The notes below the pieces were generated by a model, which had not been told where the DNA came from, did not search any database, and saw only the letters and a program-made list of their open reading frames with translations. The translations under genes were made by a program, and so were the position numbers. Below are positions 31,041 through 35,424 of a stretch of 64,000 bases of DNA, piece after piece. The stretch spans positions 124,001-188,000 of the forward strand of contig JAJQFD010000040.1 in assembly GCA_021201335.1 (NCBI GenBank), given 5' to 3'. The DNA is from Bacteroides sp. Its GTDB lineage: Bacteria; Bacteroidota; Bacteroidia; Bacteroidales; Bacteroidaceae. How positions within the stretch are numbered: position 1 is the first letter of the stretch; each line of letters begins with the position of its first letter.

Positions 31041-32096
31041 TTAGTGATTTTCCAAAAACTTTTCAATCGTATTTTTACCTGTTTCCAGGCAGTTTTCTTT
31101 TACTACATTCAATATCCCTTCAATGCTTGTCTGCGTGATAGGTGGATTGTTACGTATATATATAAGGTATTCTTTATCCTCGATCTTGTTTCCCGTTTCA
31201 ATCCGGATATCTGATTCAACTTCTCTATTGGCCAGAATACCGTTGCGGGCAAGGGCTTTTCGTACCATCGTATATTTACGTCCATGTCCGGAAAGTCTGA
31301 TTTGATGGGTATATTCATTATTTACCCGGAAGAGTCCGGTTTCCATATCAAAGGTAATACCTTTACGGGCAAAGAAGGTGCTCAGATCACCATTGAGGGA
31401 GAGGTCTTCGGGGGTTCCTACAGTCAGTCCCTGGGTCTTATCCATTACCCAAAGTTTGTCTGCAATTTGGAGGGCCAGTTCCAGATCGTGAGTAGAGAGG
31501 AAAATAGTTTTATGCGTATCTCTGCTCAGACGATGGAGTAATTGCATAATCTCAACTTTACTCGGAAAGTCGAGAAAGGCAGTGGGTTCATCCAGGAAAA
31601 TAACGGGTGTTTCCTGAGCCAGAGCTTTGGCAATCATTACTTTTTGCCGTTCTCCATCGCTGAGGGTATGTACCATCCGGTGGGCCAGGTCTTCAATTTT
31701 GATCTGGCCAATAGCTTGTTTTACAATTTCTCTGTCTTCTTTATTAAGTGTTCCCCAAAATCCGGTATAAGGGCTTCGACCCAGACCAATCAGTTCCTCA
31801 GCAGTCATATTGCGAATGTCGAGGCGATCTGTCAGCACTACACCAATGATATGCGAAAGCTCACTATCTGTATATTCTTCCAGATCTTTTCCTTGTATAA
31901 GGATTTCACCGGATAGTTTAGGTTGGAAAGCTGATAAAGTACGGAGTAGGGTTGATTTACCTATTCCATTTGCTCCCAACAGACAGGTAAGTTCACCTTT
32001 ATGGATAGATGCATTGATATTGGTAGCTACTACTTTGGTATCTTTCTTGGCAGGGTAGCCAATGGAGAGTGATTTTATTTCGATGGTTTTATTCAT
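31041..32096 (-). CDS. ABC transporter ATPase, FecE/BtuD type
   Basis: An ATP-binding subunit of an iron-siderophore/cobalamin/heme-type importer, about 351 residues. It has Walker A GANGIGKSTLL, a Q loop, the signature LSDGERQKVMIAKALA, Walker B PVIFLDEP and the switch LSTHD. The domain ends near residue 250; an extra ~100 residues (NNEYTHQIRLSGHGRKYTMV onward) form a C-terminal extension not needed for ATPase function and possibly regulatory. No permease or binding protein is nearby, so it is an orphan here. The start may be 32105 or 32096. It lies downstream of the B12-riboswitch/nrdDG unit on the same strand. Confidence 0.88.
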   Translation of the reverse strand: MNKTIEIKSLSIGYPAKKDTKVVATNINASIHKGELTCLLGANGIGKSTLLRTLSAFQPKLSGEILIQGKDLEEYTDSELSHIIGVVLTDRLDIRNMTAEELIGLGRSPYTGFWGTLNKEDREIVKQAIGQIKIEDLAHRMVHTLSDGERQKVMIAKALAQETPVIFLDEPTAFLDFPSKVEIMQLLHRLSRDTHKTIFLSTHDLELALQIADKLWVMDKTQGLTVGTPEDLSLNGDLSTFFARKGITFDMETGLFRVNNEYTHQIRLSGHGRKYTMVRKALARNGILANREVESDIRIETGNKIEDKEYLIYIRNNPPITQTSIEGILNVVKENCLETGKNTIEKFLENH

Positions 32097-32227
32097 TGAA
32101 TTCATTTTTACGCCCTACGTAAAAGAACCTAACCCAGATGAGGAATAAGTGAAATATCTGCATCAGCTACCCGATGCGGGGGCAAAGATAATGAATAATT
32201 TAATTTATGGATGTGGGTAAGGTATTC

Positions 32228-32692
32228 TTATTGATGAAACCAACTCGTTATGTCCTTCATGTTCCCGTTATCAATGAGATACATACGTTGATTGGTGGAA
32301 GGTGAACTCAATCCTCCCCGGCTTTCGATATAAGGTCCCAACTTAATGTAATCAAAGTTTTGCAGAGAGCAATTATCCGGTAAAACGGGCTTACCGGAAT
32401 ACCAGCCCGTCTTTACATTTATATTTGCTTTTTGCTTTAGGAAGGCGCACAGTTGCTCAACTTCACCGGGTGAAGCATCGCCTCCCATAAAGCAAATACA
32501 AGTAATAGCTTTTCCGTATTTCTCCAGTAATCCCTTCAAAACATCTTCCGTTAATAGATATCCTGTGTCATCCAGTAAGTAAGGACTATGACATCCTTTA
32601 CAACGATTGGGACAGTTGGATAGGTTAATGGCCAGTGTTACTTCGTTGGGTATTTCCTGAAAAACTATGTCATAATTGACGTACCGAAGCAT
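32228..32692 (-). CDS. nrdG: Anaerobic ribonucleotide reductase activating protein
   Basis: A radical-SAM activase that installs the glycyl radical on NrdD. The 154-residue protein, read from MLRYVNYDIVFQE at 32692, has the iron-sulfur motif CPNRCKGC (CxxxCxxC) and the SAM-binding GGDASP. The open frame extends to 32743, but that start would lie deeper in nrdD. With the start at 32692 it overlaps the nrdD end by 23 bases, indicating translational coupling. Confidence 0.93.
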   Translation of the reverse strand: MLRYVNYDIVFQEIPNEVTLAINLSNCPNRCKGCHSPYLLDDTGYLLTEDVLKGLLEKYGKAITCICFMGGDASPGEVEQLCAFLKQKANINVKTGWYSGKPVLPDNCSLQNFDYIKLGPYIESRGGLSSPSTNQRMYLIDNGNMKDITSWFHQ

Positions 32693-34760
32693 AATGACGC
32701 TTGGCAGCCTCCTTTTGTCTGCATTGGGAGAAGTTACTGACACGTTTCATATAGCCGATAATGCGGGTCAGATAATCCAGATTCTGGCTATGGCAGGACG
32801 GGCATTCCTTCAGGTTATGCTTATCAATATGATTACAATCGTTGCAAACTGTATTGGGAATATTGAAGGTAAAGTAGTTGCACCCTTCCTGTGCCGCTAC
32901 CCGGAGTAAATGCCGGTATTGCTCTTTACTCAGATGTTCCTCCAGGTTAAGATGCAAGGCAGATCCACCGGTTAGGTGTTCAATGTATCTGCGTCCATGT
33001 AAACGGAATTTATCTATGATGTTCAGGGAACCATCTTCTACAATATAGAAATAGCTGTTGTAGCAATCCCGATTTACTTTGTATCCATCCCGTTTATCCC
33101 ACTTCGCATGCTTTACGCCTACGTTTTCTGCCGGGATCATTTCGCAATTAAACATGAGCTCCTTCGTGCGATACCTTTTATTATAATCTTCAATCAATCC
33201 CAGTATTTGCTGAACAAATTCTTCATATCGGGGGTTGTCATTGATTTCAATTCCGAGAGACTCGGCGGCTTCTACCAGCCCATTTACCCCAATCGTGAGG
33301 TACTGGCGTCCCATATTGATATAACCCGCATCGAATAAAGGTAGCATTCCTTTCTGCTGCATGTATTTCAGGTTTTCATTGTAGGCCACTTGTACTTTAT
33401 GTACGAGGTCAACTACTTCTTCCAGAAAGAACTGATAGTGATATCCTTTACGCATAGCGTGTTGGATACAACGGTTCAGGTTGATTGTCAGTACACTTTT
33501 CGATCCGGTAGATACTCCTCCGGCTCCCAATGTATAGCTGAACCCGTTATTCTGTATCTCATTACGGAGGCGGCAACAACTACTCAGAGAATCTGCGTTG
33601 TCACTTATATAGGTAAAGAATGAATGTCCTTCGGCGTACATTTCAGCTGTAAAATCACCATATTCTTTGTCTTTAGTATCTCCGTTTTCGGTGAGTAAAG
33701 CCATCGTTTCTACCGGAAAGGTTAATATGCTACGGGTGCGTTCCCGGTTAAACCATTTCATGAAGCGTTTTTGAAGCCAGCTAAGGGATTCCCAATGAGG
33801 TTTGCTTCCATCCGGGAAAACAAAGTCGCCAAACAGGCTTTCGAAATAATATTTATCATAGTAAGAGATATTCCAGAAAACTGCCTGGAAGTTCCGGGCC
33901 CCGGTTGGCTGGTTAATGGAATAAACGATCTGTTCAAAATGATCGGTAATCACTTTATCGAGGGTGCGTTGTTTTCTGGAAAGATCGACTACCTTGTCGG
34001 CATTCACATAATAATCATTGCCATACTCCAAACCGATGAAATAATTCATGTACATCAGGAATTCGGGAGTCGCACATGCCCCACTCAACATACTGGAAAC
34101 CATGAAGACCATATTCACAAAACCCCCGCAGAAGGATTTCAGGTTGGTAGGTGCTTTGGAATTCCCTCCGATAGATGTTGTGCCTCCTATCAACCAGGGA
34201 TACATCGTTACACTGGCACAATAGTTGGCGAGGCTGGTCTCATCGTTCTTATATATATAATGGTTATTCAGAAGTTCAATGTATTTATCGGATAACTCTT
34301 TGCCATACATTTCCTTGATTCGGTCGGTAAGCATTCGGCGGTTAAGGCGTATGAAATTAGATTTAGGCAATTCACCGATCAGGGTTGCCATGTTCTTGTT
34401 TTCCACGTTGGCATTCGAGTCGTATTTACTGCCGGAAGCGGCATTTTGAGCATCACAATAATCAATTAGGAACTGAAGTTTGTCCCTTACCTCCCTGTCT
34501 TCCAGATGTTTTTGCCGGTAAAGCATATAGGCTTTTGCCACCATATAATACCTTTCGGCCATCAGTGCTACTTCAACCTGGTTTTGTATATCTTCCACAG
34601 TTGTATTGTTCGTGATGCTAACTCTACTCAGGATGTTGGTTATTACCTCCTCACTGGCAAAACTGCCCACAGATAAAAATGCTTTGGCGATTGCATTTTT
34701 AATCTTCTCGATAGAGAACGCTTCTCTTTTTCCATCTCTTTTAGTAATGAACAATTCCAT
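32670..34760 (-). CDS. nrdD: Anaerobic (class III) ribonucleoside-triphosphate reductase
   Basis: Makes deoxyribonucleoside triphosphates without oxygen, using a glycyl radical. Read from MELFITKRDGKREAFSIEK at 34760, it has 696 residues: an N-terminal ATP-cone (to about 95), the ten-stranded barrel, a C-terminal zinc site (CNDC...CPSC) and the glycyl radical loop RIIGYM (G669). The longer open frame to 34883 runs into the leader and lacks family resemblance. A cobalamin riboswitch lies about 145 bases upstream in the leader, so expression should respond to B12. nrdG overlaps its end. Confidence 0.96.
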   Translation of the reverse strand: MELFITKRDGKREAFSIEKIKNAIAKAFLSVGSFASEEVITNILSRVSITNNTTVEDIQNQVEVALMAERYYMVAKAYMLYRQKHLEDREVRDKLQFLIDYCDAQNAASGSKYDSNANVENKNMATLIGELPKSNFIRLNRRMLTDRIKEMYGKELSDKYIELLNNHYIYKNDETSLANYCASVTMYPWLIGGTTSIGGNSKAPTNLKSFCGGFVNMVFMVSSMLSGACATPEFLMYMNYFIGLEYGNDYYVNADKVVDLSRKQRTLDKVITDHFEQIVYSINQPTGARNFQAVFWNISYYDKYYFESLFGDFVFPDGSKPHWESLSWLQKRFMKWFNRERTRSILTFPVETMALLTENGDTKDKEYGDFTAEMYAEGHSFFTYISDNADSLSSCCRLRNEIQNNGFSYTLGAGGVSTGSKSVLTINLNRCIQHAMRKGYHYQFFLEEVVDLVHKVQVAYNENLKYMQQKGMLPLFDAGYINMGRQYLTIGVNGLVEAAESLGIEINDNPRYEEFVQQILGLIEDYNKRYRTKELMFNCEMIPAENVGVKHAKWDKRDGYKVNRDCYNSYFYIVEDGSLNIIDKFRLHGRRYIEHLTGGSALHLNLEEHLSKEQYRHLLRVAAQEGCNYFTFNIPNTVCNDCNHIDKHNLKECPSCHSQNLDYLTRIIGYMKRVSNFSQCRQKEAAKRHYASVRQL

Positions 34761-34904
34761 GGTATAATGTATTAGCAATAATGAATCAACAAAGTGAAAG
34801 CTGAGTGATGAAGATAGAAGGAGATAATACTCCCATAGGTTTTTACCAGTTTTGCTTTTAGAACCTATCCTGTTGCTCTTCACCCGAAAGCTTTGGAATT
34901 TGCC

Positions 34905-35067
34905 AGACAGGGCAGGTTTTCTGACTTGTTACAGGTAATACGCCTTCCCGGTTTTCGACCAGTGGCTTTTGTGTGTACACCTTTTATATATAACTTACAG
35001 CTACGGGGATAGTTCCTGACTTTCACAGGATTCCCTTTTTCATCCGAATTTCTCCGGAACCTTGTCT
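34905..35067 (-). promoter_or_regulatory. Cobalamin (B12) riboswitch in the nrdDG leader
   Basis: Reading the minus strand, P1 AGACAAGG (35067-35060) can pair with CCCTGTCT (34912-34905). Conserved core words occur in the right order: AGGGAATCCTGTGAAAGTCA, CCCCGTAGCTGTAAG (the B12-box-like central part), AAGCCACTG, GGGAAGGCG and AAGTCAGAAAACCTGCC. Gene-side expression signals lie in 34761-34904; a GGAG/CTCC hairpin and AGGTT/AACCT pairing there may form the switch. A -7 box at 35071-35078 would start the transcript at P1. When B12 binds, nrdDG should be turned down. Confidence 0.9.
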
Positions 35068-35070
35068 CTA

Positions 35071-35078
35071 CAAAAGTA
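35071..35078 (-). promoter_or_regulatory. -7 element of the nrdDG transcript
   Basis: TACTTTTG on the minus strand (TAnnTTTG), placing the start within a few bases of riboswitch P1. No TTG -33 box is seen. Confidence 0.5.
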
Positions 35079-35424
35079 GCATTTTTTAGCTTTATGATCC
35101 TACTTTCGGATAACTTTTTTATTCGTATATTTAGAAAGTTTTCCATTTTAAAAAATAAACTGTTGATATTCAGTGAAATTGTTGATGATATGTATGAAAA
35201 AGTTATCCAAAATAAAAACTTTATTGATATACCACGTGCTTTCTTGCTGATCTGTAAGCAGAATTAAAACTAAATCTCTTATGTTCTGAATTTCCTATAA
35301 ACCGTGTATTTTGCATCGTGTGTCGCTTGAAGGATAGACATCTGTTCTCCTCTTCCTCATTGACTTGCTGTATTCTGGCTACTTGAACTTCCTCCTTCTT
35401 TTTTCTTGCACGGCGCAACTACCC

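Follow-up and report, generated by a model that had tools for sequence, protein, structure and literature searches.

A full-length cobalamin riboswitch ahead of nrdDG in a Bacteroides genome, and its probable link to B12-dependent ribonucleotide reduction

The locus described here raises the question of why genes for an oxygen-independent ribonucleotide reductase should be preceded by an RNA that appears to sense vitamin B12. The locus lies in a 64,000-nucleotide stretch of Bacteroides sp. DNA, the whole of which is referred to below as the window. An earlier note, made from the sequence letters, had read the nrdD leader as a B12 riboswitch and had predicted a B12-dependent reductase elsewhere in the genome. 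The explanation that we prefer, arrived at by sequence comparison, is that a cobalamin riboswitch very probably represses nrdDG when adenosylcobalamin or a related cobamide is plentiful, with the class II enzyme NrdJ taking over. The features on which this explanation is built are as follows.

32670..34760, minus strand: nrdD, encoding a 696-aa ribonucleotide reductase of class III (anaerobic); 969.6 bits to NCBIfam TIGR02827, cut-off 568.3
32228..32692, minus strand: nrdG, encoding the 154-aa activating protein of NrdD, the gene overlapping the nrdD end; 168.8 bits to NCBIfam TIGR02826, cut-off 151.7
34894..35079, minus strand: aptamer of a cobalamin riboswitch, matched by cmscan over the full length of RF00174 (102.8 bits, E 1.3e-24)
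35071..35078, minus strand: Bacteroidetes-type -7 promoter element TACTTTTG, a TAnnTTTG box (sequence and placement in homologues)

The RF00174 match in the 64-kb window covers model positions 1-189 of 189, its score being set against a gathering score of 31.5, and the whole-genome search recovered the same place (35079-34894). Apart from one tRNA it was the only Rfam match above gathering scores in the window. The outcome that had been named as fatal to the riboswitch reading, a lack of any RF00174 match in an Infernal search, thus did not come true, and the feature is, as a sequence annotation, a genuine cobalamin riboswitch. It reads into the overlapping nrdD-nrdG pair from the same strand, with a gap of 133 bases between the aptamer and the ATG. 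The feature is real where it had been placed, although its boundary of 34761 was one base off, the nrdD start codon being 34760-34758. With its score above the curated cut-off and the activase NrdG adjacent, NrdD is assigned to the class III enzymes of the TIGR02827 type.

The proposal of a -7 element placed so that the transcript would begin at P1 also agrees with the sequence. The TAnnTTTG box, which we take to be the Bacteroidetes -7 promoter element, occupies 35078-35071, and the pairing part of P1 starts four bases past it (35066-35063 with 34909-34906). Among 89 homologous leaders, not all from independent species, TAnnTTTG was found within 100 bases upstream of P5 in 76, where 50 shuffles averaged 4.8 (sd 2.3, maximum 11); two clusters, at 57-62 and at 41-48 bases upstream of P5, account for 59 of the 79 occurrences. 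Judging from this conserved box, transcription would start at or just before P1.

The remaining reductases of the genome were then considered. A single class I/II large-subunit gene (PF02867) was identified, and it encodes the predicted class II enzyme, a B12-dependent NrdJ of 845 aa (TIGR02504, 569.5 bits, cut-off 399.95), so that a B12-dependent isozyme of the same reaction is present. No class I small subunit (PF00268) was found in the genome and no RF00174 match in the 13 kb around nrdJ (L007). There is also a second complete class III pair of another subtype, nrdD2-nrdG2, on contig C22 of genome G000 (L169, 3638-6360, plus strand), with a 735-aa nrdD2 product carrying ATP-cone and NRDD domains followed by a 170-aa NrdG; this pair has no RF00174 match above the gathering score. 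Since it lacks a riboswitch, B12 would switch off one of two class III reductases, and the logic of a take-over by NrdJ is blunted for the same reason. By a stricter standard of our own, with every B12-independent isozyme placed under the switch, nrdD2-nrdG2 is the exception.

Under the preferred explanation, the B12-bound leader would lower nrdDG output, as the RNA family and published data on another Bacteroides B12 riboswitch lead us to expect. NrdJ, having no riboswitch nearby, would then supply deoxynucleotides, while in a shortage of B12 NrdDG would be made as a B12-free backup under anoxia and nrdD2-nrdG2 would stay outside B12 control. The earlier claim that the oxygen-independent reductase is switched off therefore fits the presence of NrdJ but would apply to one of two class III pairs, with repression itself a predicted step; the interpretation is partly supported, in that its core holds but the assumption of only one class III enzyme was too simple. 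As regards the source of B12, three RF00174 matches occur in the 5.0-Mb genome, of which one of the other two precedes the gene of a DUF4465 lipoprotein and the second a cluster that encodes a TonB receptor and two DUF5074 proteins; such DUF domains are linked to the B12-uptake proteins BtuH and BtuG. The cobalamin-synthesis marker cobB (TIGR00379) is missing from the genome, and this single marker gene suggests that B12 is imported rather than made.

How the aptamer might act on nrdD was examined in the sequence between P1 and the start codon, for which the following features are needed.

34761..34904, minus strand: leader from P1 to the nrdD start codon, putative expression platform (sequence and predicted fold)
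35020..35026, minus strand: aptamer loop L5, GUGAAAG including the closing base of P5 (Rfam alignment and sequence)
34794..34800, minus strand: CUUUCAC, exact 7-base complement of L5 and candidate L13 kissing-loop partner, 40 bases upstream of the ATG

The distance from the end of P1 to the ATG is about 145 bases, as the earlier note had it, with a median of about 139 over 92 leaders (56 named leaders minus 2 with poor L5 detection, plus 38 from the order search, the window included and near-duplicates among them). A plasmid search with the leader as query gave no match. The window leader shows no excess of structure over shuffled sequence (z -0.54), 60 of 200 shuffles giving an equally good or better fold. 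Two pairings, AGGTT/AACCT and GGAG/CTCC, had been thought able to alternate. Pairings are indeed present at 34868-34862/34841-34835 and 34834-34830/34823-34819, but alternation is unsupported, as in the predicted fold both form together as neighbouring hairpins, side by side inside one long hairpin.

Intrinsic termination was likewise unsupported, with terminators in 3 of the 92 leaders where 10 shuffles gave 1.3 on average. The window leader (34761..34904) contains no hairpin with a run of five T behind it, and a looser consensus scan gave there a weak-tailed stem of 5 pairs at 34834-34819. The last 30 bases upstream of the ATG are A/U-rich, and Shine-Dalgarno signals are little used in Bacteroidetes. 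A block of translation start, perhaps accompanied by mRNA loss, is favoured over intrinsic termination. According to PMC6143338, the riboswitch-controlled locus-2 transcript of Bacteroides thetaiotaomicron is repressed about 70-fold by B12. The RNA-seq survey of PMC12121620 gives evidence of transcriptional activity for one or more cobalamin riboswitches in ten of 15 Gram-negative taxa, and almost all of these ten also had cobalamin riboswitches that lacked such evidence. A purely translational switch is disfavoured because of this drop in mRNA and this survey. With little use of Shine-Dalgarno signals and no enrichment of terminators in the leaders, the mechanism becomes a question for reporters, and the mode of action is worth testing directly with them.

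An L5-L13 kissing loop joins aptamer and expression platform in many, though not all, RF00174 members, and a platform of this kind is conceivable here, if doubtful: the B12-bound form would engage CUUUCAC and block a start site that has no Shine-Dalgarno signal. The exact 7-base complement of L5 at 34800-34794 is what such a platform would need, and 34802-34797 is paired with 34894-34889 in the predicted fold, five of these six pairs recurring in a second fold; because of this alternative partner, the kissing-loop and folded-leader states would exclude each other. The lack of terminator enrichment in the leaders also agrees with it. However, a complement as long as CUUUCAC arose in 333 of 5000 shuffles of the window leader, and over the 92 leaders L5 complements were not enriched (at least 5 bases, 58 observed and 61.1 in shuffles; at least 6 bases, 14 and 21.7; at least 7 bases, 8 and 4.6, sd 1.8). 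In pairing energy, 38 loops paired no better with their own leaders than did loops of other species (mean rank 0.55). As a general feature identified by sequence complement, L5-L13 pairing is thus unsupported across the 92 leaders.

A separate observation concerns the word AGTTACCATTT, which is common to some leaders (L135, L138, L153 and L155 among them) and starts about 34-37 bases before the nrdD ATG. By eye, a word shared among leaders (AGUUACC) might pair with the aptamer core: AGUUAC/AGUUGC would find a partner in GUAGCU/GCAGCU there, and seems to covary with it in some of the sequences, not in all.

The explanation by NrdJ take-over was then set against a sample of 199 genomes of the order with completeness of 95% or more. 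RF00174 was found in 191 of these, NrdJ in 185 (183 over the cut-off), a class I small subunit in four and class III (PF13597) in 74. Usable class III genomes numbered 69, after G073 (broken nrdD), G111 and G131 (small or weak matches), G140 (partial) and G178 (upstream sequence missing) had been dropped. Of the 69, 37 have a riboswitch ahead of a class III gene, G116 with two riboswitched nrdD genes being counted once, and the arrangement is therefore common in this order. The predicted control would make the enzyme used for DNA precursors depend on how much B12 is available, in an anaerobic order that is itself common and where the arrangement is as frequent as these counts indicate.

NrdJ is present in 36 of the 37 genomes with a riboswitch before nrdD, G029 being the sole exception, and in 19 of the 32 without (Fisher p 1.3e-4). 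Excluding G025, which has a short upstream stretch, gives p 1.1e-4; In G070 and G118 the NrdJ matches are sub-threshold and were scored as absence of NrdJ, and scoring them as presence gives p 7.8e-4. The association was also seen by family states (26/1 vs 12/9, p 0.0013) and was weak within families (permutation p 0.085). Families f5, f9, f61 and f70 each have a member with both riboswitch and NrdJ and a member with neither, the latter in f70 being G070 with its sub-threshold match. Among the 55 genomes with both NrdJ and class III, the riboswitch is absent in 19.

A second sample was drawn from the 80 named nrdD loci, 56 of which have aptamer motifs upstream of nrdD. Fifty were taken and 49 genomes searched for NrdJ, many of them metagenome assemblies for which completeness is not given; here the association was not seen, NrdJ occurring in 26 of 27 riboswitch genomes and in 20 of the 22 others (p 0.58). 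In the named set, riboswitch status was assigned by motif, with Rfam confirming 16 of 16 positives checked; in 14 of 14 negatives checked, the 1 kb ahead of nrdD gave no RF00174 match (in L035 there are matches at a greater distance, and L031 has 682 bases of upstream sequence). In the second sample, the status of 12 of the 27 positives and of 9 of the 22 negatives is by motif or L5 detection alone. Pooling both samples gave NrdJ in 62 of 64 with and 39 of 54 without the riboswitch (p 1.4e-4). Loci L027 and L109 (G029) share an exact 60-base stretch and the same leader and are, by this resemblance, probably one species, so that the exception without NrdJ is counted twice in the pooled table.

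These counts bear on a second alternative, which we regard as unlikely, namely that a real aptamer does control nrdDG, only with a purpose unrelated to take-over by NrdJ, for example with B12 as a signal of the community or of the anaerobic state. The second class III pair, which would stay on, speaks for this, as do the failure of the NrdJ association to reappear in the second sample and the near-universal occurrence of NrdJ in the order (185/199). On the other side, NrdJ was missing from one of 37 riboswitch genomes in the first sample and from 13 of 32 without, and nrdD2-nrdG2 may come to expression in different circumstances. Take-over by NrdJ remains the reading we prefer.

Absence of the riboswitch with NrdJ retained is common and includes the near relatives L008 and L010, with 90% identical NrdD, which have NrdJ and no riboswitch; the switch is therefore dispensable. 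In locus L023, the last 60 bases before nrdD (2756) contain, by our own reading, what appears to be the 5' part of an aptamer (GGGAA, P5 and L5) with the rest gone, and there is no RF00174 match before nrdD; this fits, and looks like, a decayed cobalamin riboswitch. That the window aptamer is itself a chance or decayed match with no function, as the seeming loss of riboswitches within the group (the L023 remnant) might prompt one to ask, is scarcely credible against a full-length match of 102.8 bits (E 1.3e-24) and a promoter placement common to homologues.

Control of this kind has precedents; the earlier note names a B12 riboswitch ahead of nrdAB in Streptomyces. According to PMC545781 (2004), B12 elements precede nrdDG in Desulfovibrio vulgaris and Desulfuromonas, where NrdJ is present, and B12 is proposed, with reference to earlier work, to inhibit the B12-independent isozyme. 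The system resembles ours in having a riboswitch before a class III reductase, NrdJ in the genome and the same proposed logic, and differs in phylum and in that the window genome has a second class III pair without riboswitch. In Propionibacterium acnes, PMC3848588 (2013) places annotated cobalamin riboswitches before nrdAB and nrdDG and not before nrdRJ, and proposes that B12 lowers nrdAB and nrdDG so that nrdJ yields most of the reductase. The likeness is in a riboswitch before nrdDG and not before nrdJ; P. acnes is, however, an actinobacterium which also has a class I reductase, whereas the window genome is without a class I small subunit. Bacteroides thetaiotaomicron, as described in PMC6143338 and PMC8941943, belongs to the same order and has B12 riboswitches and NrdJ (BT_2145), but its loci there are B12-uptake loci, unlike the ribonucleotide reductase genes of the window. 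The arrangement itself is thus already published, and riboswitch control of nrdDG in company with NrdJ is a known idea. Our literature search found no paper stating the arrangement for Bacteroidales, Degnan et al. 2014, the likeliest source, having been outside that search. A more specific proposal for the nrdD riboswitches of Bacteroidales would be the combination of a B12-off and an always-available copy of class III with a platform lacking intrinsic terminator and Shine-Dalgarno, in which B12 would alter the A/U-rich region upstream of the start codon (perhaps through the kissing loop 40 bases upstream) and block Shine-Dalgarno-independent initiation; we put it forward as speculative and rather improbable.

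Several other loci of the order deserve mention. The 1.2-Mb genome G073 (L118) has NrdJ and no RF00174 match, and its nrdD is broken by in-frame stops. Genome G047, of the same genus as the window genome, retains a riboswitched nrdD (L141) and has in addition, on contig C7 at 88826-89053, a frame of 108 aa whose match to the window-type NrdD model is confined to the final 76 positions, and which is probably a remnant of a lost nrdD copy. At L126 (G184) and L053, a cobalamin riboswitch before nrdD stands back to back with a second one, which is on the opposite strand and faces away.

Behind nrdG, by 122 bases, lies a gene for a FecE/BtuD-type ABC ATPase (31041-32105, minus strand). Its membership of the nrdDG operon was unsupported: it has a -7-like box of its own, TATCTTTG, at 32190-32183, and none of the 80 named nrdD loci gave a relative of it in a tblastn search (E up to 1e-8), although some of these loci end shortly after nrdG. 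Read-through from nrdG into this gene is possible. Elsewhere in the genome, contig C58 (G000, 91753, L172) carries a periplasmic binding protein and a FecCD permease with no ATPase within the 3.9 kb examined. The next best match to the ATPase in the genome has 34% identity (83 bits), and because it has no close paralogue there, it may be the missing BtuD.
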